Assembly (NCBI GenBank): GCA_964036045.1
Contig: OZ038385.1
Coordinates: 42,822,367-42,886,366, forward strand
Source: Eutreptiella sp. 'Long Island Sound 2002'
Taxonomy: Eukaryota; Euglenozoa; Euglenophyceae; Eutreptiales; Eutreptiaceae
Length of the DNA stretch: 64,000 nucleotides
Reading direction: 5' to 3'
The first letter of the stretch is position 1. Each line of letters opens with the position of its first letter. Position numbers and translations under genes: made by a program. The notes below the pieces were generated by a model. The model was not told where the DNA came from and made no database searches. It was given only the letters and a program-made list of their open reading frames with translations. This document shows positions 15,774-61,406 of the stretch, in pieces.

Positions 15774-15795
15774 GTGTCCAGATGTTGGATGAGGC

Positions 15796-18195: not shown

Positions 18196-18281
18196 CGGGC
18201 CAGTGCTCAGGGACCACCCCCATCCTGGTCCGAGGTCCCGGTGGGCCGCGATCGGCGGCAGCGGCGGCCCCTGCCCCCCGG

Positions 18282-34441: not shown

Positions 34442-35152
34442 AGAAAGATGTCCTTGAATTATGCCCTAGGTCTTTTGATGTATTCCTGCAGGTTTTGTAG
34501 TTGAAAACCCCAAACCAAAGCAGCAAGTAGAGCAAGGACTGAATGTGGATCGAATCAATGATTGGTTTTGGAATCCAGTGTAACACAGAAGGGCTGCAGA
34601 TAGACAAAGCAGGTTTATGCACATAGATTCAATCACAAATGTATAATACAAAAGATTTTATATGAAAATTGGTCAGACTCTAGCCTCAGAGGTTGCATTA
34701 GGCACTTCATGTGCACTCTTTTGGGTGAAATGGTGCTGGTTAGGACTGAGAGGCATAGATGTCAGGACCACACAGAAAATGACTTGGCCAAGCAACTGAA
34801 TTCAGAAACAGTTACAAAGTAGGACCACAATAAGTGGTAGAAACAATTGAGTATAGGGGTCTTGGGGTGGGAGACCACTAGGCTTAACCTCCAAGGCCTA
34901 CAAGCATGAAATGCCTGATTTATTTTGGTATGTCCTCCATGAAGGAAGGTACCTCCGCTCAGTTGAGTGGTAGGGGTGAACTTCATGGGGGGGCTAGGGT
35001 CACAACCCTAGTTACTTTGAGAAAGTGTACTTTAGGCAACAAAAGAGAGATAAAAACACTTAAGTTTGTCTTAGCATCAACAAAGGGTTTTAAGGGGGGC
35101 TTAGCCTGGATCAAGCCCTCCAAGAAAGACGTGGCAGTGACTTTTTCTTACT
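34442..35152 (-). repeat. Ty3-A 3' LTR (element orientation)
   Basis: Minus-strand ends are AGTAAGAAAAAG...CTTTCT. The polypurine tract that should lie just inside (reading GGCGGG before AGTAAG) is short. An ATATAAAA-like TATA motif on the minus strand lies near 34655-34665. Confidence 0.93.
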
Positions 35153-38100: not shown

Positions 38101-39195
38101 ATCACTGTGCCTCAGCCAGTAGTGGCGAGGGCAGTCCGACCTCAACGACATCTGCGCTGTGCACGCAACGAGAGCACCCCTTCCCTCCAAGCCCTAGCAG
38201 GGGAAACGCGTTGTGGCGTCCCCTGTTAGGCCACAGCTGCTTAGGAGCGCTGTGTTCTCTTGTCTTCTTCACAGGAGGGCCATTAGGGCCTGTGTGAACT
38301 TTGACAGCAGCACCCAGTAGCGTGTGTAGGGGTTAGGGTCAGCAGGCCTGGCAGAGGTGAGTGCAAGTGATGAGTGCTCACCCTGCCTTCGAAGGCCAGT
38401 GCTGGCGTTAGTGAGTGTAGTGTAGTGGTGTCTCCTGTCCCGCGTGCTTTTCCTCGTGGGCAGGGGAGTGCGTTAGCTTTTGGCCTGTAGCAAAAAGGGG
38501 CGTTCTGTATGCCCTTAGCACACTTGGCCACCCCTCCCCTCTTAGTAGGTAGGGCTTTTGCCGTCTTACCCCAAGGATAGGCGCCAGCACAGAAATTGGG
38601 CGCCATAGGAGTGGTAATAGTACCTGATTAGGACCTTCGGTCCGACGTCAGCGAAGCCTGGTCTCCAGGAGCCCCGCTGGGGAGAGAAGTGAGACACATA
38701 CAGACATACGTAGCACACTTAGGGGTATGGTAAACCCTGTAAGGAAGGGTAGAACCCCATGGGTCTGGACCAGTCAAGGAGGGAAGACACACCTTGCCTC
38801 ATAACACCTTGCTTGTCATTCCCCCCTGGTGTAGTAAGCCACCGTTCTTCGTTGGCTCACCAAGGTCATTACATTAGGGCAGTACCCATGCACCACATGG
38901 TCAACAAGGCAAACACTCGCTGGGTGGCTGCAATCTTGATAAGCGGCCACCTGGCTCACGCTGGAAACCATAGGCATGGGTCTGCAGGGCACAGACAGGG
39001 TCAGTGCAGTGCTCAGTAAGCAGTAGTCTGTGAAAAACCAATGGCCTTCGGCCAGGGAGTGGTTGTCACGGGGGGCTAACGGTCCTGTCCTGCGATGCAA
39101 TGCGGGGCAACTGTGACAACTGCTCTTACACCCATACTCAGGCACGACTGCAGAAGAGTGCTCACTGCACCTGTCAGTAGACTGACACAGGGAAA
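35153..39195 (-). other. Ty3-A long 3' non-coding region
   Basis: About 4 kb lies between the pol stop and the 3' LTR, of which 1.36 kb is an inserted hAT. A tRNA-like sequence (A box CCTAGTGGG, B box GGTTCAAACCC, minus strand, about 35395-35470) lies near the LTR. Segments at 36388-36554 and 37918-38290 are homologous to the equivalent region of Ty3-B and contain conserved hairpins. A short minus-strand ORF (38190-37921) has a counterpart in Ty3-B. Confidence 0.75.
36555..37917. mobile_element. Non-autonomous hAT transposon, 1363 bp
   Basis: The ends are CAGGGTTGGTACC and its complement GGTACCAACCCTG, a hAT-type TIR, flanked by a perfect 8-bp target duplication AGGTCACA (36547-36554 and 37918-37925). 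The homologous site in Ty3-B (about 50512-50520) has a single AGGTCACA, giving a natural empty site. It has no transposase. About seven ~30-bp units (GCGAAGCAGCACTGCGCG type) lie at 37000-37200. Confidence 0.92.
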
Positions 39196-42100
39196 TTAGC
39201 TTCGCTTCTTACGCTGGGACATAGTCTCAGCACTGGTTAGGAGTTGACCCTCGTTGTTCTCAACGAGGTAAGTGCGGAAGATGGGGTTGATACTCCCATC
39301 TGGTTGTATAAGGGCTGACATAGGTTCCCAGGTCGCCTCGGACAACCCATAGCCATCCCACAGGGTTAGGAATTTCCAGCCCTGTTTATACTCGTGGCGA
39401 GCAATACCTGCAACCACGTAGTAACCATCGACTGCCATCTCATCGGCAGTCATCTCTTCGAGTTCGTCTGCCTCCTCTGGACTGGCAGCGTTCTCTAGGT
39501 CTATACGTGCAATCTCACTGTTGCTGAGGCGCCACTCATCCCAAGACAAGTCGTCAGGGGAGTGATAGTGCCTCAACTGCTTAGGAGCACATAGCAGTTC
39601 ACCACCTAGACGTGGACTGCACCTGACATCGATCCTGGATCCATCTATTCTGATGATACGATAGGGTCCAAAGTAAGGGTCCTGTAGGCAGTTACGTGGC
39701 CAGGAGGGTAGGCGTGAATGGTGTACCAAAACAAGGTCACCAACCTTGAAGCTGGCAGGTCGCCGTAGGCGGTTCCGTCGGCTCTGTTCACGGTCACGAA
39801 TGTGCCTCAGGTTAGTACCAGCCTGGTTAGCCAGAGACTGCTTCTGTTCCAGCCAATCTCCCACAGGGCTCTTGAAGTCCTCAGGGAAAGGGGTTTTGAA
39901 GAACCATGCAGGTCGTCCTCCATGGAACAGTTCGTGGGGGGTGAAACCCGTAGAAGAGCTCCGCTGTGTGTTCATGGACAGAACTGCCCAGGGCACTAGG
40001 CGTACCCAGTCCTTGGTGCGCTCCTGTTTCATCAGGATTCTTAAGTTTTGCTCCACCACACGGTTCTGTCTCTCACAGAGAGGGTTAGACGTGTGAGTAT
40101 AGGGCACACCTGTGGTTACCTCCACGTTGAGGGCATTTAGCACTCGTTTGTACCACCCAGTGTCACTGCGGATGCGTACATCTTCATCAGAGTGCACCTG
40201 TTTAGGTGCTCCATAGGGTTCGAACCATTGTTCGACCAACATTTTTACAGTCTGCTCACCTGTGATTTTCTTATTGCAAGGGAACACACGGGTGAAGCGA
40301 GATAGACCACAGGTGACCACGAGGCAACTATCATAGCCGCCAAAGCGTGGTAGGCCGTGGATGTAATCCACGTAGAGAAGAGAGTTAGCACAATAGGGTA
40401 TGGGTAAGCTGGAGATCAGACCCCTATCCCTACTGTCGCTCTGCTTGCTGGCATGACAGCCACAAGCATCCACAATGGTCTGCATACGCGACCTCAGTTC
40501 AGTCAGGGTTAGACTTGAGTAGAAACACTCACGGAAGAAGTCCACTGAGCGATTAGCGCCAGTGTGACCAGAACTGAGATGGGACCACTGTAGGCACCCA
40601 TCCAGTCGTGCCTCAGGCACCACAATTCGGTCCTCGTAGAAGAGGTACTGATTGTTTTTATACCACTGGTGCCCGTCAATGACACGGGGTTCGAGACCAG
40701 TGCTGAGTGTTTGGAGAATTTCTTCATACTCTGACTGATAGTCGGTTAGACTCCAACCCTCCAGGATTCCAGCAGTGCGCATGGACAGGTCAAGCTGGAC
40801 ATCCATACGCTGGAAAGCCTCTTTGGCGAGCGCCTCAGAGCTCTCACCAATAAGCGCATCGAAGTTGTTGCGCGATATATAGTCAGACAGTTCATTCTTA
40901 ATCCCGGGGATATGATGCACTGTCAGCCTGAACTGGCTCAGGTAAGTCCACCACCGTTTTAGCTTTGCTTTTTCCGGTGGTGGGCCCTTCTGAAAAGACT
41001 TCACAGGCTCCTGGTCACACAGCCAGACAATAGGGTTAGATCCCAGGAGTCGGGATTGTGACGATAGCACCAACATACCGGCCAGGAGTTCCTGGTCATA
41101 GGTGCTGTAGTTGGAACGCGCTTGGTTCCATTTCCAATTCCAGTGTCCCAGTGGCACCAGTCGCCACTCACTGGTAGGATAGTCATGTTTCAACGAACCA
41201 TCACGGTTCAGTCCAGTAGTACGATAATGGCAGTGGGTTAGTTCAGCGGGGTTAAGCTCCTGCCATTGGTAGATCGTACCTCCCCCCCCTACATCACTGG
41301 CATCAGTGATCAGGACTATCTCGCCCTCAGGACGGGGCACTCCCAGGCAGTTGGAGGAGGCAATCTTCTTCTTCAACTCTTGGAAACACTCTTCCTCTCT
41401 GGAGGTCCACCTCCAGGGAGTAGTTTTCTTGATCAGGTCAGTGAGGGGTGCAGAGGAGTAAGTAAAATTGTGGATGTGACGCCGATAGAAATTACAGGCG
41501 CCCACAAAACTCCTCACATCGTGTAGACCCTTCTTAGGGTCATCGCGAATCTGTATGTCCTGTAGGGGCTGCATCTTAGACGCGGCTGGTTTCCACCAGC
41601 CATACCCCACGTCGAAACCCAAATACTCCATCTCCTCTTTCATAAACTCACATTTTTCGAGTTTGATTCGGAGATGGTTTTCTTGACAGACAGTGAAAAA
41701 TTCACGGAGGAGAAGGACATGGTCCTCTTTGGTATTAGTACCCAAACTCACGTCGTCGATGTGAGCCTCCATTTCTGCACCCCGAGAAATCAACTCTTGT
41801 ACTAGAGGCCTGCGCCTCAGTATGTACAAAATTTTGTTCATAAGCTCCTGGAAGAGCGCTGGGGCATTAGCCACCCCGAAAGGCATAACCTTCCACTTGA
41901 AGACACGACCCTTAGGGGTTATAAAGGCAAGCAGCTCCTGAGCTGCGGCGGTTAGGTCAACCTGCCAGAAACCAGAGCGTTTGTCCATTTTGGTCTTATA
42001 CCTGCATTTGGCAATACGCTCCAGGGTGTTTTCCATGTTAGGAATACTCCCTGAGTGGTTCTGGGTTTTCTTGTTGACCTCACCATAGTCTACAACAAGA

Positions 42101-43998
42101 CGTAGGGCAGTCGACCCTGGTTTAGCAACAAGGAAACAGGGACTGCAGTGATGGGGATAGTCCCCGTGTTTATACTCTTCAACGAGGCCAGCATCAATGC
42201 ATTCTTGGATCTGGCGCTCGATTTCTTCAACCTGTTCCTGTGGAGCGGGATAGGGACGACGCCTCACTCGCGTCTTTTCGAATTCTGGTTTCAATTTCAA
42301 GTCCATCTGGACCAGCTTTTTACAAGAAAGGGGAGGCAGCAAGGCGCCGAACACCTCCTCATAGGTCATCAGCAGTTTCTTCAGGCGGGGGTCAAGGTTA
42401 AGACTCTCGATTTTCTGAAGGAAATCCTCCTCAGCATGGAGGTTGCTTTTTCCATGTTCTTTCTTTTTATGCCCATCAGCAGTTTCGGCAGGTACAGTAC
42501 CATCGTCCCACTCAGGGGGACATTGCTGCCCATAGTGTAGAGAATACACTAGAGGTATCTCAGGATCAGGCAACGTATAGGACTCATCGTCCTCCTCAGA
42601 CCAGATGGAGTATTTCCAGGTCTGTCTGAGGTATTGCAGCCGCTCTTGGCGCTCAATACCTTCGGCCTTCAGGTACAACAGCCGTCGGAGTTCTTGAGTG
42701 TCATGCTCAGACAATGGCATGTTATTAGCAGCAGGCCGTGCCAGAGCATCAGCACTCCGGGCCACGGGTTCACCTGTGTGCACAGGCTGCATGTGTAGCA
42801 CTGGTTTCCCAACAGAGGAAGCGGGTTCAGAGGTTGACTCTAGATCTACCTCCTCTAGCAACAGCTGGGCCAGGAAAGCACTATGTTTTAGGTCAACACA
42901 GCTGGGATCAACAGAGGGAATAGTGCTGGCGATCTCAGACAGTTGGTCGTCAGCATCCTCTTTTACAGCTGCAGGTTCCAGATAGTCATCAGGAGACTCA
43001 CACCCTGTAAGTGTGGCAGATAGGTGCTCAGGAGATCGATTTTTGAGATCATAAAGGGTCAGGCCACGATTTTCGGCCATGACCTCTTTTAGTAGCACCT
43101 GGTCCAGGTCACACAGGGGTACAGGATTGAGAGATCCATCGATGATGGACAGGAAACTGGCCCACTCAGGGGCCTGCATAGCTGTGTCTGAGTCCTCAGG
43201 CACATAGATGGGGCCGTCGGGGAGTTGCACTCTTCCCACGGTCATTCGGTCAAGCATACGGCGCCAGTAAGCATGTTCACCAGAGCAACCCCAGTCAGGG
43301 GTGCACATAACAACCCTTCCTCCCTCATAAGCGATCTTGGTTAGAACCTTCGCGAGCAGGGAGAAGGGAGGGTTAGCATACGCTAGGCCCATTGCTTTCC
43401 AGAAGAAACGGAAAGCATTGTTCATTTGTTTCGAGCAGTACAACTGCATGATGTGCTGTTGTTGGCTCGCAAACAGTTCCACCTGGATCTCATCCAGGTT
43501 TACCTGGAGGGCCGCCAGTCCATTTTCGAGAACATGACGGGCCAGTTGGTAGTTTTCAGTACGATAGTTCGTCTTGGCTGCGTAGCGCAGCCCAGACTCT
43601 TTTCGTCCTGACAGCTCCAAAGGAACGGAGAATAGCCCACTGCCAAAGTCGCAGTGCAGAGAGTAAGGACGCTGTAGGGACAGCATTTTTACCTGGGGGT
43701 TTCTTCTTAGAAAGTCGGTGCCAATGACGATGTCAAAGGCGTCAGTGTCCAACACTCTGCAGTGTTGGGTCACGGTTTCATCGCCCAGACATATGGTCAC
43801 ATCGACCCCCCCCAAGGAATGGATGGTACGCCCATCCCCTACTCTTATGACCCCGGTCTTAGTTTTCCTGAAAGTTTTAAGCAGGCGCCGGGCCACTATG
43901 GAAAGTGTTGCACCGGTATCAAGCACTGCTCGAAAAACCTGATCCCCGATTTTCACGAGGATCCAGAAAACCAAGTCCTCCTCTTCGGAGCCGCCCCC
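39196..43998 (-). CDS. pol: Ty3-A Pol polyprotein: protease, Dam-like domain, RT, RNase H, integrase, chromodomain
   Basis: Translated by continuing past the gag stop; there are 8 codons between the stop and residue 1 as numbered here (codon at 43974). The protease active site DTGAT is at 19-23. Residues 160-290 hold the Dam-like region: VELFAS 165-170, NPPF 201-204, then a VVMCTPDW strand. RT is about 600-790 with HIDD (738-741) where most families have YxDD. RNase H starts at DAS 891. Integrase follows with an H/C zinc region and D-D-E residues (VDYI, HSDED, CERQNRVVE). A chromodomain sits at about 1515-1557 (WKFLTLWDGY, TWEP). The product processes Gag, copies RNA to DNA and integrates it; the chromodomain probably targets chromatin. 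The frame is fully open over 1592 codons. Confidence 0.93.
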   Translation of the reverse strand, partial: GGGSEEEDLVFWILVKIGDQVFRAVLDTGATLSIVARRLLKTFRKTKTGVIRVGDGRTIHSLGGVDVTICLGDETVTQHCRVLDTDAFDIVIGTDFLRRNPQVKMLSLQRPYSLHCDFGSGLFSVPLELSGRKESGLRYAAKTNYRTENYQLARHVLENGLAALQVNLDEIQVELFASQQQHIMQLYCSKQMNNAFRFFWKAMGLAYANPPFSLLAKVLTKIAYEGGRVVMCTPDWGCSGEHAYWRRMLDRMTVGRVQLPDGPIYVPEDSDTAMQAPEWASFLSIIDGSLNPVPLCDLDQVLLKEVMAENRGLTLYDLKNRSPEHLSATLTGCESPDDYLEPAAVKEDADDQLSEIASTIPSVDPSCVDLKHSAFLAQLLLEEVDLESTSEPASSVGKPVLHMQPVHTGEPVARSADALARPAANNMPLSEHDTQELRRLLYLKAEGIERQERLQYLRQTWKYSIWSEEDDESYTLPDPEIPLVYSLHYGQQCPPEWDDGTVPAETADGHKKKEHGKSNLHAEEDFLQKIESLNLDPRLKKLLMTYEEVFGALLPPLSCKKLVQMDLKLKPEFEKTRVRRRPYPAPQEQVEEIERQIQECIDAGLVEEYKHGDYPHHCSPCFLVAKPGSTALRLVVDYGEVNKKTQNHSGSIPNMENTLERIAKCRYKTKMDKRSGFWQVDLTAAAQELLAFITPKGRVFKWKVMPFGVANAPALFQELMNKILYILRRRPLVQELISRGAEMEAHIDDVSLGTNTKEDHVLLLREFFTVCQENHLRIKLEKCEFMKEEMEYLGFDVGYGWWKPAASKMQPLQDIQIRDDPKKGLHDVRSFVGACNFYRRHIHNFTYSSAPLTDLIKKTTPWRWTSREEECFQELKKKIASSNCLGVPRPEGEIVLITDASDVGGGGTIYQWQELNPAELTHCHYRTTGLNRDGSLKHDYPTSEWRLVPLGHWNWKWNQARSNYSTYDQELLAGMLVLSSQSRLLGSNPIVWLCDQEPVKSFQKGPPPEKAKLKRWWTYLSQFRLTVHHIPGIKNELSDYISRNNFDALIGESSEALAKEAFQRMDVQLDLSMRTAGILEGWSLTDYQSEYEEILQTLSTGLEPRVIDGHQWYKNNQYLFYEDRIVVPEARLDGCLQWSHLSSGHTGANRSVDFFRECFYSSLTLTELRSRMQTIVDACGCHASKQSDSRDRGLISSLPIPYCANSLLYVDYIHGLPRFGGYDSCLVVTCGLSRFTRVFPCNKKITGEQTVKMLVEQWFEPYGAPKQVHSDEDVRIRSDTGWYKRVLNALNVEVTTGVPYTHTSNPLCERQNRVVEQNLRILMKQERTKDWVRLVPWAVLSMNTQRSSSTGFTPHELFHGGRPAWFFKTPFPEDFKSPVGDWLEQKQSLANQAGTNLRHIRDREQSRRNRLRRPASFKVGDLVLVHHSRLPSWPRNCLQDPYFGPYRIIRIDGSRIDVRCSPRLGGELLCAPKQLRHYHSPDDLSWDEWRLSNSEIARIDLENAASPEEADELEEMTADEMAVDGYYVVAGIARHEYKQGWKFLTLWDGYGLSEATWEPMSALIQPDGSINPIFRTYLVENNEGQLLTSAETMSQRKKRS
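43105..43494 (-). other. Dam-like N6-adenine methyltransferase-related domain in Ty3-A Pol
   Basis: The region from VELFAS to the LPDG/IYVP stretch follows the order seen in the Dam-like domain of DIRS-type retroelements: a [VD]-x-LFAS start, a Cys/Ser turn, an aromatic strand, an [N]PP[F/Y] catalytic-type motif (43363-43374), then hydrophobic strands and a P-D-W. NPPF belongs to the [DNS]-PP-[YFW] motif IV of N6-adenine methyltransferases. Homology is by motif order, not by alignment, and SAM binding is not proven. Confidence 0.6.
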
Positions 43999-46191
43999 CT
44001 ATTCCTCATCAGGGAATTTCACATCCACCCCTGCAGCCATGAGGGACTTGGCCATCCAGGCAAAGCGCCTCTTCTTAGAATTATTCCCCTCAGGGGTAGC
44101 GTTATCCCCTTGGGGGCGCTTCTGGGGGACACCTGCGGCAGGAGCGGGTGAAGCAGCAGGAGTGGGTGTTGCAACAGGCGCTGATGAGCGCCTCTGGGGG
44201 TTAGGGGGTCTAGTCTTGCCACCCCCTTTGCCACCTCCTTTACCTTTATCCCCATTCGGGGGATTTCTGGCAGGCGTCTGGGTCTTCTGGCGCTCCGCCT
44301 CCTGACGCTTGAGTTTGTCACTCTCGCGTTTCCTGATGTGGCATTCGTCCTCGTAGTGACGACGTTTGCCACAGTAACCACAGGTGATGGTACACCTGAT
44401 GTGGTCCTGATAGGTCACCTGTTTCCCATCTTTGGTGTGCTGCTGACGTTTCATCTGCAGCATACAGCCACCGCGGAGATCGCAGTCAGAGGCATGACAA
44501 CGTCCCCCCTTGTCATTGACAGGTCGGCAGTAGAACAGGGGGGGTGTGCCTGCATCAGGTTGAACCTTGTTCATGGCACGTAGGTTGCCCCTCCCTTTAC
44601 CACCTCCCTGGTTGGTGTTAGTGGGATTTTTATGCCCCTTCCCTTTGCCACGTTCGGGGGTAGGGGTACCACCTCGTCCCAAATGCTTCTTGAGGAATTT
44701 CTCCATGCGGGAGTCATTCTCTCTCTCAAGAGCTAGCTCAATCAAGAGATCCACCAGTGTATCGTACGAGTGGGTCCTGCTCTTCCTCTCAGAGGTGGAG
44801 CGGCAATCATCCCACGTACGCTGGGGGATCTTACTCATGAGCCACAGGTGGGGCTCAGTGGCTCCGTAGGAGCCCACATTCATCCTCGAAAATAAGTACT
44901 CCAAGTCGCACACGTACTCAGAAATTCGCGCAGCGGATGGAAACTCCGGGAGCATAGGTAGCTCCTCGATCTGTGTGCGTACGCTGAGGTCAGTCTCAGA
45001 GACTGGAAATGTTTTCTCTAACCTCAGGAGTACCTCTGCCCAGGTAGAACAGGTTTTCACAATCTGTTTGACCTGTTTTTGCAAAAATTTCTTTTTGCAT
45101 GAGCGTTTTAGCAGTGAACATTTGGTGGCCACATCCACATGGGATTGGCCAGTCAACAAAAGGAACTCTGCAAATTCTTCTGCCCATTCGAGCAGATTTT
45201 TGGGGTCGAACTCCGGCAGTTCCAGCTGGATGTTCGCCTGGGCAATTGGTCTGCCCGTCTTCCCACCCCCCGGAGTTAGGCCTGATGGCGACACGCCGGC
45301 AAGAGGGGCCAGGGCTGACAGCCCTCTCCTCTCACTCTCTGTGACAGGCACGTCCTGTAGATCAGCCATAGGCACAGTCCTGGTACGGGGGTGAAAGGGG
45401 CTGGGGCAGGTAACCTTAGGCAACAGCCTTGAGACCCTTGATCTCTTGAGATCTTCGGCCAGGGTACTCAGCCCTGGAGAGAGAGAGGGTAACTCAGGCC
45501 TGGGTAAGGGTTCTGCAATACCCAGTTTAGCTTTAATGGCCTCCGATAAGGCCGTCACATCTGGATCTTCTGATCCAGACAGGAACTTGGCCAACAACTC
45601 GGCCGTTTGATCCAGGGCACCGTAGGTTGGCCTTGGATGATGTTGTTCTTCGAGTCGTGTTGGGCCCACTTCGGGAGCCCTTGGGGTTGGATAACATGGT
45701 CTTGGATACTCAAGTCTTGTTCGTCTTGGCAGGGATGCAGTGGACGGAGGACCCGAGTGCGCGTAGGACCCTAGGTCTGTACGTGGTATGGATCCATGTA
45801 CAGCCAGTGGCTCCTCTCCATCTTCCCCACGGATGGATTTGTAGTACTCCTGATGTAGGATGTTCTCGTCCATCTTCTGCTTCAGCTCCTCATACTCCTC
45901 AGGTCCTTCAATGGCAGTTGAGGATGAAGCTGGACAATTTGATCTTGATACTGAAGCAGCCACACGTCTGTGGAGGTGACTGAAGCTGTCTCCACCGTAT
46001 GCTGCTAAGGCCTCGGTTGTAAGGCCTTTATTCTCTTCCGCCCTTCTGCGTTCTGGATCTCCTTGGGACCCAGATGCGCCACTGAGATGATGTGGAGCTC
46101 GGTGTGGTGGTTCACTCATTGGGTGGGCCATGCTGCCCATTTGTACTTGGACAGTTCGGATAGGCCAGGTCCTGACGCTTGGCGTGGACAT
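43999..46191 (-). CDS. gag: Ty3-A Gag with CCHC zinc knuckle
   Basis: A 730-residue ORF from ATG 46191 to TAG 44001-43999. The N-terminal half is Pro/Arg-rich. A central helical capsid-like region follows. A Cys/His-rich block leads into a classical knuckle CGYCGKRRHYEDEC (C-x2-C-x4-H-x4-C) near the C-terminus, then Gly/Lys-rich and Pro-rich tails with a basic KKRR patch. Gag packages the element RNA into cytoplasmic particles. Pol continues in the same frame directly after the stop, so a fraction of Gag-Pol could arise by readthrough. Confidence 0.9.
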   Translation of the reverse strand: MSTPSVRTWPIRTVQVQMGSMAHPMSEPPHRAPHHLSGASGSQGDPERRRAEENKGLTTEALAAYGGDSFSHLHRRVAASVSRSNCPASSSTAIEGPEEYEELKQKMDENILHQEYYKSIRGEDGEEPLAVHGSIPRTDLGSYAHSGPPSTASLPRRTRLEYPRPCYPTPRAPEVGPTRLEEQHHPRPTYGALDQTAELLAKFLSGSEDPDVTALSEAIKAKLGIAEPLPRPELPSLSPGLSTLAEDLKRSRVSRLLPKVTCPSPFHPRTRTVPMADLQDVPVTESERRGLSALAPLAGVSPSGLTPGGGKTGRPIAQANIQLELPEFDPKNLLEWAEEFAEFLLLTGQSHVDVATKCSLLKRSCKKKFLQKQVKQIVKTCSTWAEVLLRLEKTFPVSETDLSVRTQIEELPMLPEFPSAARISEYVCDLEYLFSRMNVGSYGATEPHLWLMSKIPQRTWDDCRSTSERKSRTHSYDTLVDLLIELALERENDSRMEKFLKKHLGRGGTPTPERGKGKGHKNPTNTNQGGGKGRGNLRAMNKVQPDAGTPPLFYCRPVNDKGGRCHASDCDLRGGCMLQMKRQQHTKDGKQVTYQDHIRCTITCGYCGKRRHYEDECHIRKRESDKLKRQEAERQKTQTPARNPPNGDKGKGGGKGGGKTRPPNPQRRSSAPVATPTPAASPAPAAGVPQKRPQGDNATPEGNNSKKRRFAWMAKSLMAAGVDVKFPDEE

Positions 46192-46272: not shown

Positions 46273-46983
46273 GGAAAGATGTCCTTGAATTATGCCCTAG
46301 GTCTTTTGATGTATTCCTGCAGGTTTTGTAGTTGAAAACCCCAAACCAAAGCAGCAAGTAGAGCAAGGACTGAATGTGGATCGAATCAATGATTGGTTTT
46401 GGAATCCAGTGTAACACAGAAGGGCTGCAGATAGACAAAGCAGGTTTATGCACATAGATTCAATCACAAATGTATAATACAAAAGATTTTATATGAAAAT
46501 TGGTCAGACTCTAGCCTCAGAGGTTGCATTAGGCACTTCATGTGCACTCTTTTGGGTGAAATGGTGCTGGTTAGGACTGAGAGGCATAGATGTCAGGACC
46601 ACACAGAAAATGACTTGGCCAAGCAACTGAATTCAGAAACAGTTACAAAGTAGGACCACAATAAGTGGTAGAAACAATTGAGTATAGGGGTCTTGGGGTG
46701 GGAGACCACTAGGCTTAACCTCCAAGGCCTACAAGCATGAAATGCCTGATTTATTTTGGTATGTCCTCCATGAAGGAAGGTACCTCCGCTCAGTTGAGTG
46801 GTAGGGGTGAACTTCATGGGGGGGCTAGGGTCACAACCCTAGTTACTTTGAGAAAGTGTACTTTAGGCAACAAAAGAGAGATAAAAACACTTAAGTTTGT
46901 CTTAGCATCAACAAAGGGTTTTAAGGGGGGCTTAGCCTGGATCAAGCCCTCCAAGAAAGACATGGCAGTGACTTTTTCTTACT
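46273..46983 (-). repeat. Ty3-A 5' LTR (element orientation)
   Basis: Partner of 34442-35152. Same length (711 bp) and the same AG...CT-type ends, apart from a single A-to-G change (plus strand) at its inner end next to the primer-binding site. Confidence 0.93.
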
Positions 46984-46988
46984 ACAGG

Positions 46989-48335: not shown

Positions 48336-49132
48336 AGAAAAGTTTATAGTGGTTTCAGCACTGTGTTTTTGCTTCTCCTGCTGCTTGCTGTTGCTGTAGG
48401 GTTTCCTGCTGCTTGTTTTGGATGATGAAAACCTTTTGTTTGCAGAAATAGAGTCAATAGAGTCAATCCAGGATAACCCAAGCCAGAAGTATGCAAGGAG
48501 AAGAGAATTCAGGATCAAAGCATGAAGGGCTGCAGTGTAAACAGTGAAAGATGATTGGATACCCACAGATACTGCAACTCAGGTCACAAATGAATGCATA
48601 TTCACAAAGATAGCTGAAATGTTTTTGGAAAAGAGTTAGAAAACTGCCCCATGGTCACTCTCTCTCCATACTGCCATCTCAGGAGATGTGCACTCTTTGT
48701 TTTGGGTCCCATATGTGCTGAGGTGGCATGGTATGTGGTGATGAGGTCACTGCCATGTCACATGGGATCTTCCTACTTAGCTAGGCTGACCAGGAATTGA
48801 ACCCAGGACCTCTCAAAAAGAGGTGCCCAGCCCCCTAGGGTGCATACCACTAGGATAGCTAAGAATTCATGGAAAAACAGAGATAAATTCATAGGCTCTA
48901 CCTTAGGTATGTCAGTGCTCAGTCAACTCAGGAAAAGATGTTTTACTTCTGATTGAAAGGGGATTAAGGGGTCCACTCCATATCCTGATTGGGTGTTTGG
49001 TTCCATAGGTCAAAATGTGTTATCACCACTTTTGGTTGGACCAATACTAAGATAAAAATGCATGGATGCTCAGTGCATCTCTAATACAACTAGAGTATGC
49101 CTCAAAGCAATGGAAAAGCACTTTTTCTTACT
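48336..49132 (-). repeat. Ty3-B 3' LTR (element orientation)
   Basis: Minus-strand ends are AGTAAGAAAAAG...CTTTTCT. Directly inside, the minus strand reads AAGGGGGG before AGTAAG, a good polypurine tract for plus-strand priming. Confidence 0.92.
48780..48860 (-). repeat. tRNA-Lys-like module inside the Ty3-B LTR
   Basis: The minus strand has an A-box-like TATCCTAGTGGTATGC, a 5-bp stem ACCTC/GAGGT closing a 7-base loop TTTTTGA (anticodon position TTT), and a B box GGTTCAATTCC, with AGCT...AGCT ends. The other LTR has the same module at 61049-61129 with one T-arm change. Confidence 0.55.
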
Positions 49133-51383
49133 CCCCCCTTGTGGTGTGGTGGCCACCACTGTCGCATTTTAGGAAAAAGGGAATTTTTCTTGGCCTTTCC
49201 TTGGTTTCCACATCTACTTTAAAATACCTACAGTTTCCCTCACACTGAAAAATGAGCGCTCACCATGGCTGGCGCTCTTTTGCTGCTCTGTATGTAACAT
49301 GTCCTACAGAAGACTCAGCGCTCATGGCGCTGCCGGGGCTCGTGTGGCTTGGTTGGGTTAGTATGGGAGCATGCCAAACATATGCATATGCATCCCTCCC
49401 TCCAAGACGCAGCGTCGACACAAACCCAACGCAAGACACAATATACACACTCGCATGGGTTCTCGTAAACCTACTGGCGACCTGTGACCTGTCTTAGGGC
49501 GAAGGGAGTCGGAAGAAAATTAAATTGCCCCTTGCCGGGGTCTTGGTTCTGCTCAGTCTCTCCAGGCACCTGCGTTTCGGCCCGAACACGCCCTACTCAG
49601 CGAGGCTGCGCGTGGGTATCTGCAGAGGCAGGAATGGGAGAATTATGGACGAATCCACGCAAAAACGAAGCGATGACACCAAAATCTGCCAAATGACGGC
49701 GTAGAATTTTTCTGAAACAACACACCTGAGCAGAATCCAATTGTGCATCAGAAGCACATTTTTATAGAAATTATAGTCATCTCTGGATTTTTTAAATCCA
49801 GAAATTCATACGCATAAAATGGCGGAGCGCAGGAGCGGCTCCTAGCGAAGCGCTGGAAAATGGAGAAATAATGGAATTATAAACGTATGTCTCACGTAGT
49901 CTTGAAAATGACGAGACACACATTAATAAATAAACATACAGATTCCACCCACACTAATAGAAGCTTCAAAAATTCAAGAATTCGAAAACCAATCGAAAAG
50001 ACTTCAATGAATCAGGTATAAACTACAGGTATGCTCGTTTCGCATGCCGCATACACATTGCTCGTCTCGTGTCTCCTTGAACGAGTCTTGTAGCAGCGCT
50101 AACAACAATAGAACGCGATAGAGGGATTGATTAGAAAGATTGCAGATGATTAGCGGTCAGATCAGGGTGATTAGACATACACACAAGTGCATAGCAACGT
50201 TCTTCGCGTGCGCCCCTTACTTGCTCTCTCTCTCCAGCGGTTGGTAAGGTGAGTAAGCCCAGGCGGGGCCACCCCCTAGTGGAGTCCGTGATTGGTGCTG
50301 AGATGGGCAGGTGTGCCCAAAAGGATCGTGCCTACTCGCGCATGCACACACGCATTAAAGGGTAGGCCACGCGAAGTGCGCACGGTAAACCTTGTTTAGG
50401 CTACCCAGGGGCTCCTCGGTACGTTCTTTAAGAGAACCTGAGGAGTCCCTTAAAGCTTGCTTGCTTGACAAGGGTAGCTGGTCCTCCAGCGTGTTTGCGG
50501 ACAGTGTATTATAGGTCACACTGAGAAGGGTATAATACCTGGAGTGTGGCTTGGTTCCTCCGCCGCAAACGCCCTTTCATTTGCCTTTGTTTTACAGGTG
50601 GGCAGGTAGGGTGATTGGTGCAGCAGCCTTTTTTTATGCCCTGCTAAACAAGGGCGCAGATCACACAAACAAGTAACTCCGCTCCGCCTGTGGCAGAGCA
50701 GGGAGTCCGACTTCATCGACATCTGCGCCTTGCACGCGAGAGCACTCCTTCCCTCCAAGCCCTAGCAGGGGAAATGCGTTGTGGCGTCCCCTGTTAGGCC
50801 ACAGTTGCTTAGCAGCGCTGTGTTCTCTTGTCATTTCACAGGAGGGTCGCTAGGACCCACGACACCTTTGCCTTCGCAACGCCCAGTAGAGTGTGCGTGT
50901 AGGAGTGGTAGTCCTGAGTGGGGGCTTGAGCCAGTTGCCCCAGTGCTCGCCCACCAGGATGGTGCCACTGTAGGGTGTGTAGGACCTGTAGTGCGTGTGT
51001 CACTGTCCCACCCGTTTCCTGCAATTTTAGCAGGGTTGGTGGGCTGTGGCAGTGGTTAGGTCAGTGTTTTGGCCACATAGCAAAACGGTGTTTTCATGCC
51101 TTCATAGCTTTTGGCCACCCCTCCCTGTAGTAGACAGATAGGTAGGGAAAACAATACCTGGATTAGTACGCTGGGTATTCCCCAAAGGTTTTGCGCCAGC
51201 ACAGAAATTGGGCGCTTAGGGGAGGGGAGACCCGGGGCGTACCCCATGGCATCAATATGCCAACCCTCCAGGTTTAGTAAGGGCGCAGACTTGGGTATAA
51301 TTAGGACACCACTTCTGCGGCTTGCTCTCAGGACCTCAGGGATAGCACACTCACACATACGCTTTGGCAGGTAAGGGTAAGGT
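49133..51383 (-). other. Ty3-B 3' non-coding region
   Basis: About 2.25 kb between pol stop and 3' LTR. The segment 50350-50800 is homologous to Ty3-A 36388-36554 plus 37918-38240, including two hairpins and a short minus-strand ORF (50758-50516). No other coding signal. Confidence 0.75.
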
Positions 51384-52898
51384 TCAGTCCCTAGCTTTAG
51401 TCTTGGAGGCAAGCGTCTCAGCGAGCCTCAGCAACTCACCAAGGTTGTTCTGGGACAAGTAGTCAACCAGAACTGAGTTTAGGCGTCCCTCAGGTAGAAC
51501 AAATGCAGAGAAGGGCTCCCAGGTGGCTTCTTCGACTCCAAACCCTTCCCAGAGGGTGAGGAAGCGCCAACCCTGGCGATAGCGGTGGCGTAGGACAGAC
51601 TTCACCAGGTAGAAGCCCTCCTCAGCCATCTCCTCGGCGTTCATGTCGGGGAGCTCACCTTCAACTTCCATAGGGCTGGCAGCCCCTTGTAGGTCCAGAG
51701 CGGCGATTTCCTCGTCGTTCAGCTCCCACTCCTCCCCACAGGGGTCTTCAGGATCATGGTAGCGCTTCAGGTGTTGAGCAGCGCACACCAGGGTCCCTTC
51801 TAGACGGGGAGAACACCGCACGGTGATACGGTGTCCATCCACTGATAGGATCTTGTACGGCCCGAAGTATGGGTCATCGCTGGTAGAGCGTGGCCAGGCG
51901 GGTAGACGACTGTGGTGCACCAGCACCCAGTCCCCCTCTTGGTAGGTGGCCGGTACTCGGTGCTGGTTCTTCTTGTTCCACTGACGCTCCCTCACTCTCT
52001 GGAGCATCGCCTTGGCCTTGTCCACCTTCGCTTGTTGCTCTTGGACCCATTCACCCACAGAAGAATGGGTGTCCTCTGGATAGGGGGCATGTAGGAACCA
52101 TGCCGGGCGCCCCAGGAATAGCTCATGGGGCGAGTAGCCAGTCGCTGAACTCTCTTGGGAGTTCATCATCAAGGATATGACGGGGAGTAGTCTCACACAG
52201 TCTCTGGTGCGTTCAGTTTTGCACCATATCCTGACGTTCTCCTTCAGGACACGGATCTGTCGCTCACAAAGGGGGTTGCTCGTGTGAGAGTAGGGAATCC
52301 CCGTAGACACCTGGACATTGAGGGATCTCAGGACCCTCTTGTACCAGCCAGTATCTGAGCGTACTCGCACGTCCTCATCGGAGTTGATCTCCTTGGGCGC
52401 CCCATAGACACAAAACCACTCCTCCAGGAGTATCTTGATAGTCTCCTCCCCGGTAATGTGCTTGGTACATGGGAACACCCTGGTAAACCTGGTCAACCCA
52501 CAGGTTACCACGAGGGCGAAGTCATAGCCCCCGAACTTCGGCATCTCCGTGTAGTCCACGTATAGAACACTGTTAGCACAGTGAGGGATGGGCAAGGTCG
52601 AGTAGAGACCTCTGTCCCTGATATCCCCTGGTTTACAGGACCGGCACGGGCACTTGTCCACGATAGGCTGGAGGGTTTTCCGCAGTTGGTCGTCCGTCCA
52701 CGTAGTGCTTGAACAGCCTCAGGGTACGTTCAGCACCCACATGACCACTGGACTCATGGGTCCACTTCAGCAGCGCTGGGACTCGGTCACTAGGCACCAC
52801 GATGCGGTCCTCGTGCCAGAGGTAGCTCTTGTCCCTCTTCCACTGGTCTTGGTTGACCAGGAGGGGTTCAAGGCGTTTCTCCGGGCGCTTGTAGATAT
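51384..52898 (-). pseudogene. pol: Ty3-B Pol, C-terminal part: integrase and chromodomain
   Basis: Reading minus from the TRIM insertion: the linker and the H-x3-H start of the integrase zinc domain, then a one-base frame break near 52690-52705, then C-x-C-x2-C, the catalytic core (VDYTEMP, NSDEDVR, CERQIRVLKE) and a chromodomain (GFYLVKSVLRH, WRFLTLWEGF, TWEP). It corresponds segment for segment to the Ty3-A integrase. The frame break and the TRIM abolish normal translation. Confidence 0.85.
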
Positions 52899-54593
52899 TG
52901 AAGCATTTGGGGGGAGGGCAACCTCGAAGCTTCCCTTCGCATGCACGACCTCAAACCCCCAAACCCATGAAATCCAAGACTTCCTCTGGAATTCAGGATT
53001 GTCCAAAGAATTCTGTGATCCTTGCCTCGGCCATGACACAATCTGGCGTCCTGGGCAAGAGATGAAGGTATATGTAGACAATAATAAACATGTAGACAAG
53101 TAATATGTATATGTAACAATTCTATACTGCGTCGCGCAGGCGACGACTGTCGTCGCCAGCCCAAAAATGACGAAAAAAGACGATTTCTGGGGCATTTTAC
53201 AGAAATCCCACAGAAATCGAGATGCCGTAACATCAACAGGAAAATTCCTGATCCAGCCTGGCGAAGAGCGCCACAGGCTGTGCAGCGGGTATGGGTGAAG
53301 CACCCCATACCGCTTCACCCCCCTCCTTAGAAGCCTTGCCTATACCCAAAGGAAGGCAAGGCCAAGGAGGCGCTCTGACCCCTGCACTGCCCTGGTTTCA
53401 AAACTGATTCATCAGAACAGTGGGGGGGGGGGCTTCGTAAGTAATTTACATGCCACATACATGTAAATTTTTTTTTGATCTTGATATATTCGTAGGGCAA
53501 TTGCCCCCCAGGCGTCCACACTGGTCCCTGGCACTCCTTGTGGCCTGTAGTTACATGCACAGAGGCGCTGCAGGGCCTTCCGCCCTGACTGATGGCGCTT
53601 AGGCACACATATGGGCCCTTTTTCTCCATGGGCATGGAAACATAATAATTCAAGAAATTCAAAAAAATTATTTGGGGTCAAACCCAAGGCAACAAATTCC
53701 TCGCGCCTGAATTTAGGGCCATTTCCTGCCCAAGGCGACGAATTCCTCGTGCCTTTTAGGGTCGATTCCCAACCCAGGGCGACGAATTAACGCGCCTAAT
53801 TTGGGGGATTTAGGGTCATTTCCTACCCGAGGCGCCCCACGCCGACTTAGGGTGGGACCTCCCAAACGGTCAACCAACCCAAGGCGACGAATTAACGCGC
53901 CTGCTTGTGCGGTTCGGTACCTGGCGTCGTCGTCGCTGTGGTCGTCGCCCAGAGGTCATTTATAGACTTGGGGGCTCCATAGGGTCGGTCCATGGGGAAG
54001 CCAAGGTCATACCCATCGTAGGAGTCAAGGAATTCCTCCTTCATCATGTTGATGCCCTGGACCGTAGCTCCTAAAGTTTCCCAGCGTGGATGCCGTACTC
54101 CTGCAGTCTGGGCGTCGTCGCCGTCCGCAGGCCGTCACACCGCCTTGGTGGCCTTGGCGTCGGCAGAATTCTTTTGAAGCATTTGGGGGGAGGGCAACCT
54201 CGAAGCTTCCCTTCGCATGCACGACCTCAAACCCCCAAACCCATGAAATCCAAGACTTCCTCTCGAATTCAGGATTGTCCAAAGAATTCTATGATCCTTG
54301 CCTCGGCCATGACACAATCTGGCGTCCTGGGCAAGAGATGAAGGTATATGTAGACAATAATAAACATGTAGACAAGTAATATATATATGTAACAATTCTA
54401 TACTGCTTTGCGCAGGCGACGACTGTCGTCGCCAGCCCAAAAATGACGAAAAAAGACGATTTCTGGGGTATTTTACAGAAATCCCACAGAAATCGAGATG
54501 CCGTAACATCAACAGGAAAATTCCTGATCCAGCCTGGCGAAGAGCGCCACAGGCTGTGCAGCGGGTATGGGTGAAGCACCCCATACCGCTTCA
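52899..54593 (-). mobile_element. TRIM-like non-autonomous LTR element nested in Ty3-B pol
   Basis: 419-bp direct repeats (52899-53317 and 54175-54593) have canonical TG...CA ends with a 6-bp inverted terminus TGAAGC/GCTTCA. They are flanked by ATAT (52895-52898 and 54594-54597). Six differences are seen between the repeats. The 857-bp interior has no ORF of note. A purine-rich AAGGAGGGGGG directly before one repeat on the minus strand suggests minus orientation; no clear tRNA primer site is visible. Confidence 0.85.
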
Positions 54594-57500
54594 ATATCCC
54601 CAAACTCCTTCAGGTACTCCGACTGTTGGAGTCCATCCAGGGGGCGTATCATGGTCATGTTCAGGTCCAGGTGTACGTCCATACGGCTGAACGCCTCCTT
54701 AGCCAGCGCTTCAGACCGGGCACCAATCAGGGCGTCGAAGTTGTTGCGGCTGATGTAGTCGGCACACTCGTTCTTCACTCCCTGGATATGGTGTACCGTC
54801 AGCCGTAGTTGACTGAGGTAGGTCCACCAGCGCCGTAGCTTGGCCTTCTCAGGTGGGGGACCCTTCTGGAAACTGCGGACCGGTTCTTGGTCGCATAGCC
54901 AGACCACAGGGTTACTCCCCAACAGTCGTGCTTGTGAGGATAGCACCAGCATACCCGCGAGCAATTCCTGCTCATAGGTGGAGTAGTTCCCCCTGGCCTG
55001 GTTCCACTTCCAGTTCCAGTGGCCCAGAGGTACTAGGACCCACTTGTCGTCAGGGTAGCTGTGCTTGAGGGTTCCATCTCGGTTGAGACCTTCCGTCCCC
55101 CATTGGGAAATGGCCGAGTCGAACTCCTCCTTCTCTAGTGCTTGCCATTGGAACAACGTTCCACCACCGCCCACATTGCTGGCGTCGGTCACCAGGATAA
55201 TCTCCCCTTGTGCCCTAGGCATGCCCAAGCATTTAGCGTTGGCTACCTTGTCTTTGAGCTCGTCAAACGCTTGTTGCTCTTGTGGGCCCCAGCGCCAAGT
55301 AGTACTCTTCTTGATCAAGTCCGTCAGTACGGCGCTGGTATAGGTGAAGTTTTTGATGTGGCGGCGACAGAAGTTGCACGCCCCAATGAAACTGCGTACA
55401 TCATGAAGTCCTTTCTTGGGGTCTTCCTGTCGTACCTTGGCATCCATCAGGGGTTTGGCCTTAGAGGCCGCGGGGGTCCACCACCCATAGCCAACGTCAA
55501 ACCCCAAGTACTGCATGGTCTCCTGCATGAACTCACACTTCTCCAGCTTGAGTCGTGTGTGGTTCTCCTGGCAGACCGCAAAGAACTCGCCCAAGAGGAT
55601 TAGGTGGTCCTCCTGGGTATTGGTCCCGAGGCATACATCGTCGATGTGCGCCTCCATCTGGGCACCACGGGATATGAGCTCCTGCACCTTAGGTCTCCTT
55701 CGTAGGATGGACAAGATCTTGTTCATCAGCTCTTGGAATAGAGCGGGTGCGTTAGCCACGCCAAACGGCATGACCTTCCACTTGAACACCCTCCCCTGAG
55801 GGGTGATGAAGGCCAGTAGTTCCTGTGCGTTGGGCGTCAGGTCCACTTGCCAGAATCCGCTTCGCTTGTCCATCTTGGTCTTGTAGCGGCAGGAGGCTAT
55901 CTTCTCCAGGGTAGACTCCATATTGGGAATGGACCCTGAGTGGTTCAACGTCTTCTTGTTCAGCTCTCCATAGTCCACTACCAGCCGTTTGGCTGTAGAC
56001 CCAGGTTTAGCCACCAGGAAACAGGGGCTGCAGTGTAGGGGGTAGTAGTCCCCGTCCTTGTACTCCAGGACTAGGCCAGCGTCGATACATTCTTGTATCT
56101 GTCGCTCGATCTCGTCGGGCTGCTCTTTAGGAGCTGGATAGGGTCTCCTCCGGATCTTGTGACCCACGAACTCGGGTTTCAGCTTGAGGTCCATCTGTAC
56201 CAGCTTGTCACATGAGGCTGGAGGGGGTAGTTCTCCGAACACCTCCAGATAGGTCCTTATAAGCTTCTGTACCCTCGGGTCCAATATCTTGATCTTGTCC
56301 TCCATGTCCTCGTCAGAGTGTAAGTTGCTTGCCCCCTGGGTAATAGACGTCGGGAGGTGGTCCTCCACCGACTCTTCGCCCGTGGTAGTATCTTTCAGCC
56401 CTTGGTAGGCATATAGAAGGTCTTTTTCAACCATCTCCGATGGACGATGGCAACATAGGCACGCTCGAGGGGGTTCACATACACATTCCTCCGAGAGGTC
56501 GTCCTCCTCTGGGGTCCTCACGTGGGCGCCCCACACGCTCTTCATGAGCTTGAGATCTACCTCCCTTTGCCAGGTGGTGATCTTCTGTTCGAGGTCCTCC
56601 TTCAATTGGGATAGGTCTCCCATACGTCCTTGCTTCAGTGGCCATGAGCTGCGGGTAGGCTTCGTGTAGCATAGCTTTTTCGCCATCAACTTCCTCTTGG
56701 AATCCACATACTCCCTGAGCCTGGATCGAGGGTCCAGCTCCTCGTCCACGGGGTCTTCCACCCTCATGGAGAGTAGGGGTTTCAGTGGGGCGACGTACTC
56801 GGCGTTCTCCACTTCCTCCACACAGGTCTGCACGAAGAAGGCGTCGTGCTCAGTTTCGTCTTCGGAGTGGATAGAGCTGGGTAGCTCAGATAGTCCACAC
56901 TCAGAGACTCCATCAGGAACAGGTACACGGCAGGGAGAGTTGGGGGTGTTGGTGTCAGTCACGACGTACTCATCTCCTCCGGGTGTAGTCTCAACAGCAT
57001 CTTGAAGTCGTAGGCGATCCTTCAAGTCACCCAAGGCGAGTCCGTCGCTTTCTCGTTGTATAGCCTGGACCAGAGTCGGGTCCAGTTCCTCCGAGGGAAT
57101 GGAAGTAAGACCTCCGTCCACCACGCTAAGCATACTCCCCCATCCGGGTTTCCCAATAGGCGTCTTGCGCCCCAGAGGCACGTAGATGGCCTCATCAGGC
57201 AAACGTACAGAGCTGATATTCAGCCTGTCCAGGAGGTTTCGCCAGTACTCGTTGCCCCCATGGGCTCCCCAATCGGGGGAACACAGGACCATACGGGAAC
57301 GTTCCAAGGCCACCTTGGTCAGCACCTTCCCCAGTTCACTGAATCTGGGGTTCCCGTAGGCCATCCCGAAAGAGGGCCAGTAAAATTTGTAGCTGCAGTT
57401 CTTCCCCTTGCTGCAATAAAGGTCCAGTACATGTTGCTTGTCGCTGGCGAACAACTCCACACTCAGGTCTTCTCGAGAGTAACCCAACTCCTTCAGACCT

Positions 57501-58005
57501 TGGTCTAGGACTTCCCCCAATAGTTGATAGTCCTCAGTTTTGGAGGCCGCCATCATGTTAGAGGGCTCCTCCTTCGATAGCCTCAGGTAACTCGAGGTAT
57601 GTTCCGACTGCTCCAGTGGCACAGACTCTCTGCCACTGCCGTGGTCCACGTAGAGGAGGTAGGGCGCTTGCAGCGTCAGGGATTGTATCTGGGAGTGCTG
57701 CACGAAGAAGTCAGTCCCCAGTACAAAGTCGAAGGCATCAGTGTCCATCACATAGAACTGATGGGCGATAGTCCTGGAGCCCATAGGTACCTCCACTTCA
57801 CAGTCCCCGCAGCTGTGCACCACATGTCCATCCCCCATGCGTATAGCGGCGCTGGTCATGGTGTTCTTCAGGCTCCAACAAGGTAAAACTTCTTGGCCAC
57901 TATAGATATTGTGGCGCCAGTATCCAGTACCCCCAGGTATTCACGTCCCCCTAGTCGGATACGTACCCAAAACACCAGTTCTTGGGTGCCACCAGAGCGT
58001 CCCCG
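54594..58005 (-). pseudogene. pol: Ty3-B Pol, N-terminal part: protease, Dam-like domain, RT, RNase H
   Basis: It begins in frame with gag after TGA and contains DTGAT (about 57910-57924). A frame break follows (about 57870-57890), then an open 1116-codon frame from 57859. In that frame the Dam-like region has VELFAS (57460-57443) but NPRF instead of NPPF (57341-57352). RT carries FWQVDL, PFGVANAPALFQELMNKI and HIDDV; RNase H starts with VTDASNVGGGG. The host frame ends at the TRIM boundary. The protease break and the altered NPPF motif argue that this copy is inactive. Confidence 0.88.
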
Positions 58006-60504: not shown

Positions 60505-60590
60505 CTTCTTTCACCCTTCTGCTTATATTTGCCCGTACTCGGCGCACTGGGTGTACGGCACGGGGTTGCTGCCGGTGCGCAGAGACAGGC

Positions 60591-60604
60591 TGCCTCTTGC
60601 TACC
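60591..60604 (-). promoter_or_regulatory. Ty3-B primer-binding site (initiator tRNA-Met)
   Basis: The minus strand reads GGTAGCAAGAGGCA immediately inside the 5' LTR, whose last base is T, giving TGGTAGCA, complementary to the tRNA-iMet 3' end with a one-base insertion after it. Confidence 0.75.
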
Positions 60605-61401
60605 AGAAAAGTTTATAGTGGTTTCAGCACTGTGTTTTTGCTTCTCCTGCTGCTTGCTGTTGCTGTAGGGTTTCCTGCTGCTTGTTTTGGATGATGAAAA
60701 CCTTTTGTTTGCAGAAATAGAGTCAATAGAGTCAATCCAGGATAACCCAAGCCAGAAGTATGCAAGGAGAAGAGAATTCAGGATCAAAGCATGAAGGGCT
60801 GCAGTGTAAACAGTGAAAGATGATTGGATATTCACAGATACTGCAACTCAGGTCACAAATGAATGTATATTCACAAAGATAGCTGAAACGTTTTTGGAAA
60901 AGAGTTAGAAAACTGCCCCATGGTCACTCTCTCTCCATAGTGCCATCTCAGGAGATGTGCACTCTTTGTTTTGGGTCCCATATGTGCTGAGGTGGCATGG
61001 TATGTGGTGATGAGGTCACTGCCATGTCACATGGGATCTTCCTACTTAGCTAGGCTGACCATGAATTGAACCCAGGACCTCTCAAAAAGAGGTGCCCAGC
61101 CCCCTAGGGTGCATACCACTAGGATAGCTAAGAATTCATGGAAAAACATAGATAAATTCATAGGCTCTACCTTAGGTATGTCAGTGCTCAGTCAACTCAG
61201 GAAAAGATGTTTTACTTCTGATTGAAAGGGGATTAAGGGGTCCACTCCATATCCTGATTGGGTGTTTGGTTCCATAGGTCAAAATGTGTTATCACCACTT
61301 TTGGTTGGACCAATACTAAGATAAAAATGCATGGATGCTCAGTGCATCTCTAATACAACTAGAGTATGCCTCAAAGCAATGGAAAAGCACTTTTTCTTAC
61401 T
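60605..61401 (-). repeat. Ty3-B 5' LTR (element orientation)
   Basis: Partner of 48336-49132, 797 bp, seven differences by eye; contains the second copy of the tRNA-Lys-like module at 61049-61129. Confidence 0.92.
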
Positions 61402-61406
61402 CCTCA

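Follow-up and report, generated by a model that had tools for sequence, protein, structure and literature searches.

DNA methylases encoded by retroelements are already known, as Dam-like domains in DIRS elements and as cytosine DNA methyltransferases (DNMTs) in LINE, DIRS and Gypsy elements. DIRS retrotransposons with a Dam-like domain (PF05869) have, as far as the description in PMC3783388 goes, a Pol that combines reverse transcriptase (RT) and RNase H with the methyltransferase domain, together with a tyrosine recombinase and without an aspartic protease or DDE integrase. The cytosine DNMT retrotransposons comprise SymbioLINE, SymbioDIRS and KnitGypsy-Dnmt3 in the account given by PMC5890265. 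Here we explore a stretch of 64,000 nucleotides (hereafter the window) from Eutreptiella sp. 'Long Island Sound 2002' (assembly GCA_964036045.1, contig OZ038385.1, positions 42,822,367 to 42,886,366 of the forward strand) that contains a complete Ty3/gypsy long terminal repeat (LTR) retrotransposon, element 1. Judged from its sequence, a domain in the Pol of this element is homologous to Dam-type (PF05869) DNA N6-adenine methyltransferases, and such domains recur ahead of RT, as a resident component of Pol, among several Ty3/gypsy lineages within this one genome.

Element 1 resembles the DIRS elements in that a Dam-type domain lies within a retrotransposon Pol and is detected by the same Pfam model. 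It differs in having a protease, an integrase and LTRs, and in that the domain precedes RT; the link shown here runs to PF05869 and phage Dams. With KnitGypsy-Dnmt3, an LTR Gypsy element from Klebsormidium, it shares a DNA methylase within Pol, whereas the cytosine elements occur in other hosts and encode C5-cytosine DNMTs, which PMC5890265 calls structurally unrelated to Dam where it compares them. Phage Dam methylases (PF05869, TIGR01712) can be aligned over most of the domain, including NPP[YF], but are free-standing proteins of 174-237 aa (three fetched) without retroelement context. More distant parallels, as outlined in the respective papers, are a NADAR domain in the Pol of a Gypsy element from Ectocarpus and, in a Sola1 DNA transposon, a protein that combines ParB with a methyltransferase (PMC12477816), and an m6A RNA demethylase domain in an orchid Ty3/Gypsy element (PMC9289625). 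Here too algal or plant transposons have captured additional domains, some of which modify nucleic acids, but the enzymes are others and Sola1 belongs to another element class. No report of a Dam-type domain in a Ty3/gypsy Pol was found among the papers listed by searches of the open-access literature, a body that leaves most subscription journals outside. PMC6338049 is ambiguous in the passages concerned: it attributes DAM to DIRS elements, and DCM to these as well as to Ty3/Gypsy, before treating 'DAM- and DCM-encoding' elements of the two groups jointly.

Element 1 has an LTR pair, a 5-bp target duplication and the order protease, RT, RNase H and integrase, the integrase match being sub-threshold (Table 1). 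That it might be a DIRS element was ruled out by the protease above cut-off, the rve match in Pol and the LTR pair with its duplication; no tyrosine recombinase was among the Pfam families listed for its Pol and Gag. The first-pass annotation had described a chromodomain Pol, which is not established, the Pfam chromodomain match being weak (E 0.027, 14.8 bits vs a cut-off of 25.1). It had also placed VELFAS, NPPF and VVMCTPDW between protease and RT, and there they are: Pol residues 161-290 read DEIQVELFAS...YANPPFSLL...RVVMCTPDWG...APEWASFLSIIDG. When a 167-aa piece with this domain was scanned, Pfam listed no family other than Dam within an E limit of 1 (E 0.0015, 18.6 bits); NCBIfam phage_N6A_met was matched at E 0.021 (14.4 bits, cut-off 97.05) and the PHROG 'DNA methyltransferase' at E 0.078. 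By these scores the element-1 domain is a divergent relative of Dam (PF05869) that falls outside Pfam membership.

The connection is made by sister families. A scan of the genome with the Pfam Dam model, in which 150 of 3,813 first-look candidates were scored, gave 93 matches within an E limit of 0.001. Each of them exceeds the cut-off, and 26 (11 + 15) were fetched for sequence comparison. According to their sequences the Dam-like domain of this genome forms eight families, not one, which we numbered ourselves, families 1 and 2 being those of the window's elements 1 and 2. The fetched loci comprise 16 of family-3 type, four of family 4, one each of families 5, 6 and 8, and three of family-7 type; families 3-8 thus exceed the PF05869 cut-off within the same genome. 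Dam lies ahead of RT within one open reading frame (ORF) in all four sister Pol ORFs scanned by Pfam (L061, L063, L064, L065). In families 7 and 8, RT adjoins the domain and shares 54-72% identity with its counterparts in families 1 and 2 (judged by eye and alignment, not Pfam); the family-8 copy is interrupted. The seven families whose RT was examined (none was fetched for family 6) form two RT groups, about 25-30% alike. In place of the one Ty3 lineage first proposed to have acquired the module there are thus eight domain families, of which these seven fall into two RT groups. A Pfam protease is present in the window family and also among the precomputed domains of P0002 and P0006, while families 3-5 show protease remnants by eye only.

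Profile comparisons were made as single pairs, with E-values that are not database-wide, and column shuffles served as controls. The window-type profile (three sequences) scored 59.3 against families 3-5 (four sequences; best of 100 shuffles 18.2), and the profile of families 3-5 in turn reached 104 with a set of three phage Dams (best of 100 shuffles 21.1). Directly against these phage Dams the window type reached a modest 34.1 (probability 54%; best of 100 shuffles 23.0), which became 45.0 when families 7 and 8 were added to its lineage (best of 60 shuffles 20.6). The window type scored 151 against the domain profile of families 7 and 8 (no shuffle control). These last two scores make for a tight chain, in which families 7 and 8 join the window type to Pfam Dam. 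The alignment to phage Dams spans 95-117 columns, that is most of the domain. With the family-5 domain as tblastn query and an E limit of 1, 751 phage records were matched, 242 of which cover at least 80% of the query. All ten listed, from six phages, bear the annotation Dam, adenine or DNA methyltransferase; they show 26-30% identity along 85-100% of the query (E 1e-3 to 1e-4). In viral contigs, neither the window domain nor that of family 5 retrieved a confirmed relative, and a phage Dam retrieved one near-identical phage contig. Taken over sequence and profiles, homology of the Pol domain to Dam is almost certain, and the methyltransferase fold is attributed to it on account of that homology. 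The original proposal of a Dam-like methyltransferase domain in a Ty3/gypsy Pol is therefore backed by profiles and bridging sequences, with significant profile matches for the lineage overall through families 3-8, and not through the window copy, which alone remains below the Pfam cut-off.

Motif IV, which for Dam we take to be [DNS]PP[YFW], varies among the families. It is NPPF in families 1, 4, 5, 6 and 8 and NPPW in family 7, and is absent from family 2 (NPRF) and family 3 (NAPF); the conservation of NPPF expected in related Pols accordingly extends as NPP[F/W] to families 1 and 4-8 and fails in the other two. The 26 fetched loci carry NPP[F/W] in 10 cases, NAP[F/W] in 14, and DAPF and NASF once each.

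Selection on the domain was assessed by comparing the window family with one of its sister subfamilies (L077, L078, L080, where L078 equals L080 over the domain). The ratio of non-synonymous to synonymous substitution rates (dN/dS) was 0.09-0.10 in the domain, 0.07-0.10 in the protease, 0.19-0.21 in the linker and 0.03-0.05 in RT, with dS at 1.4-2.1 and therefore partly saturated. L077 against L078 gave 0.10 in the domain, 0.13 before it and 0.19 after it. Families 1 and 2 are too distant for dS; at the protein level they share 49% identity in the domain, 43% in the protease, 31% in the linker and 87% in RT. The domain is under purifying selection between subfamilies, is conserved about like the protease and evolves faster than RT. 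Among family-2 copies dN/dS is about 0.03 in the domain vs 0.39-0.41 in its flanks, a biased figure as loci were picked by protein similarity to this very domain. It is very probable that the domain is selectively maintained.

The Dam-bearing Ty3/gypsy lineages are very abundant here and recently active. The 167-aa domain of the window occurs at no fewer than 150 genome places, the protein being identical in 150/150 among the matches listed, and code for AYANPPFS (Ser as TCN), which belongs to family 1, is found at 3,603 places. The 90%-identity protein cluster of the window domain has 5,370 member sequences and one family-5 cluster 1,584. Searches of a protein database, which require shared exact 5-residue words and similar length, returned 5, 1 and 13 matches, all unnamed and at least 71% identical to the query.

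The best explanation in our view, with a probability of roughly 0.45, is that the Dam-type domain would methylate adenine in the element's own DNA. The domain would be made as part of Gag-Pol, in family 1 probably via UAG read-through, and packed with RT into the particle; there it would methylate adenines in the new element DNA, before or at integration, and the mark would either protect the cDNA against attack by the host or place the new copy in permissive chromatin. For DIRS elements that carry a DNMT, the relevant part of PMC5890265 likewise proposes that element cDNA is methylated. According to the sections of PMC12695648 on the subject, N6-methyladenine (6mA) is linked to transcriptionally permissive chromatin in many unicellular eukaryotes, for which reason marking itself by 6mA could be useful to an element; the same sections report that 6mA is not enriched in Trichomonas transposable elements, and Euglena is unmentioned in the main text as far as this was available. 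As judged from motif IV, we think that the domain is catalytic in the NPP[F/W] families 1, 4, 5, 6, 7 and 8, while families 2 (NPRF) and 3 (NAPF) may have altered or lost the activity and kept the fold. A tentative extension is that abundant Ty3/gypsy lineages here run their own Dam-type adenine methylation to mark particle-made element DNA and have diversified the module over thousands of copies, some keeping catalysis (NPPF, NPPW) and others (NPRF, NAPF) having turned the domain into a reader, decoy or altered enzyme. If true, this would be an adenine counterpart, in LTR elements, of the cytosine DNMT retrotransposons. With a Dam-type domain in several Ty3/gypsy lineages, thousands of copies and one element with near-identical LTRs, the genome supplies motif-IV variants, some intact and some altered, as a natural series with which its role can be probed; for E. 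gracilis, nanopore reads base-called with a 6mA model are deposited (PRJNA1299458), as stated in PMC12455990.

Several findings weigh against adenine methylation by the domain. The genome has 4,958 places that encode GMAYGNPRFS (Arg as AGR, Ser as AGY) vs 1 for its NPPF counterpart (Gly or Ala before Asn; backward controls 0). Since NPRF prevails to this extent and family 3 carries NAPF, a catalytic motif IV is apparently not needed for the success of families 2 and 3. The element-1 domain alone misses the curated PF05869 cut-off of 28.1 bits, and searches of solved structures returned no methyltransferase, nor did profiles A2 and A5 match one. The motif counts, together with NPRF in all 30 family-2 loci compared (a non-random sample, made up of the loci that match the window copy best; AGG encodes the Arg in 24, AGA in 6), the non-NPP motifs in 16/26 fetched Pfam-positive loci and the few amino-acid differences among the family-2 domains of that biased sample, would suit a pseudo-methylase, in which the Dam-homologous fold acts as a nucleic-acid-binding or spacing module that aids RT or the particle without methyl transfer. 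We find this somewhat doubtful, as NPP[F/W] is kept in 10 of the 26 loci and at the 3,603 family-1 places, and families 2 and 3 retain the motif-IV Asn. Methylation of adenine in RNA, either the element's genomic RNA or host RNA such as a primer tRNA, seems unlikely: the domain belongs to Pol and would be expected to be packed with RNA, and the results here do not tell DNA and RNA substrates apart, but its nearest named relatives are phage DNA methyltransferases and a Pfam DNA methyltransferase family. The missed cut-off and the lack of a solved match could also be read as chance resemblance, with motifs that are not those of a methyltransferase. This is highly improbable, for families 7 and 8 lie above the Pfam cut-off while resembling families 1 and 2 in RT and the window type in domain profile as given above, and shuffled profiles stayed at or below 23 wherever shuffling was done; we regard a chance motif as ruled out by the bridging families and column shuffles.

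How the lineages came by the domain is a separate matter. That it was gained more than once or swapped between lineages, rather than inherited from a single gain, is in our judgement somewhat less likely than not. Over 96 RT columns families 3, 4 and 5 are 44%, 36% and 47% like yeast Ty3, which is not known to carry a Dam-like domain, and 31%, 34% and 40% like family 1, and family 8 compares with family 1 at 72% in RT and 27% in the domain, family 7 at 54% and 35%. Set against this, RT and domain both pair family 3 with family 4 as closest among families 3-5, RT and domain identity correlate with r 0.56 over 21 pairs (pairs that are not independent), and loss of the domain in Ty3 fits too. The mismatch between RT and domain identity in families 7 and 8 (L085, L096; L087, L097) suggests uneven rates or domain exchange.

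Table 1. Features of elements 1 and 2, with positions counted from the first letter of the window.
Feature	Position	Strand	Details
3' LTR, element 1 (family 1)	34443..35152	-	710 bp, 1 mismatch vs 46274-46983
5' LTR, element 1	46274..46983	-	710 bp, 1 mismatch vs 34443-35152
Target duplication ACAGG, element 1	34437-34441 + 46984-46988
Gag ORF, element 1	43999..46191	-	stop UAG at 43999-44001, frame = Pol frame
Pol ORF, element 1	39196..43998	-	1,600 codons + stop; open 39199-43998
Aspartic protease, element 1	43702..43956	-	Pol residues 7-91; PF13975 + PF13650 above cut-offs
Predicted Dam-like methyltransferase domain, element 1	43105..43494	-	Pol residues 161-290
VELFAS motif, element-1 domain	43465-43482	-	
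NPPF motif, element-1 domain	43363-43374	-	
VVMCTPDW motif, element-1 domain	43291-43314	-	
Reverse transcriptase, element 1	41611..42126	-	Pol residues 617-788; PF00078 E 3.1e-29
RNase H, element 1	40930..41331	-	Pol residues 882-1015; PF17917 E 1e-9
Integrase core, element 1	40096..40392	-	Pol residues 1195-1293; rve E 1.3e-5, 25.9 bits vs 32.6 cut-off (sub-threshold)
Element 2 (family 2)	48336..61403	-	LTRs 48336-49134 + 60605-61403, 7 mismatches in 799 bp (99.1% alike), target duplication CCTCA, holds nested insertion
Predicted Dam-like domain, element 2	57104..57472 (approx.)	-	alignable to element-1 domain; NPRF at 57341-57352

Gag and Pol of element 1 are in the same frame and separated by one UAG, which is followed by GGG GGC. 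A junction of the UAG-GGG-GGC type is present in 28/30 family-1 loci and in both sister-subfamily loci (L072 being the same place as L002); in 29 of these 30 distinct junctions the stop is TAG, L077 has CAG instead, and L009 has one extra G after it. We take this context to be like the read-through site of murine leukaemia virus. The DNA directly after the 5' LTR resembles an initiator-tRNA primer site, and a Pfam scan of the Gag ORF gave no convincing Gag family. About 4 kb separate the Pol stop from the 3' LTR (35153-39195); this region holds a 295-aa ORF (37098-37985, minus strand) and a 28-bp tandem repeat at 37027-37138.

In the family-2 Pol ORF, Dam is absent from the Pfam listing at E up to 0.05. 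The Pol of element 2 is probably interrupted by a nested short element at 52898-54593, a segment flanked by two 420-bp direct repeats that are 98.6% alike.

Elsewhere in the window, ORFs at 31516-34500 (plus strand) have, on visual inspection, the look of a non-LTR retrotransposon's endonuclease and RT (no profile search made), and long low-complexity ORFs at 15795-18297 and 23186-24088 (AVLCC and STAQH repeats) derive from a short tandem repeat. The host genome has five exon-level MT-A70 matches and 55 matches to cytosine methylase PF00145 in several places; many of the latter are partial (about 160 positions), and these may belong to repeated elements or integrated viruses. What we take to be the Euglena spliced leader has 3,283 genome matches (reversed control 0), and what we take to be the dinoflagellate one has 0; a dinoflagellate host was rejected on these counts, and a Euglena-like one is likely. 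Light-harvesting polyproteins occur in both Euglena and dinoflagellates, and here light-harvesting proteins are found as repeats in long frames of up to 6,122 aa among 150 listed of 2,609 candidates.

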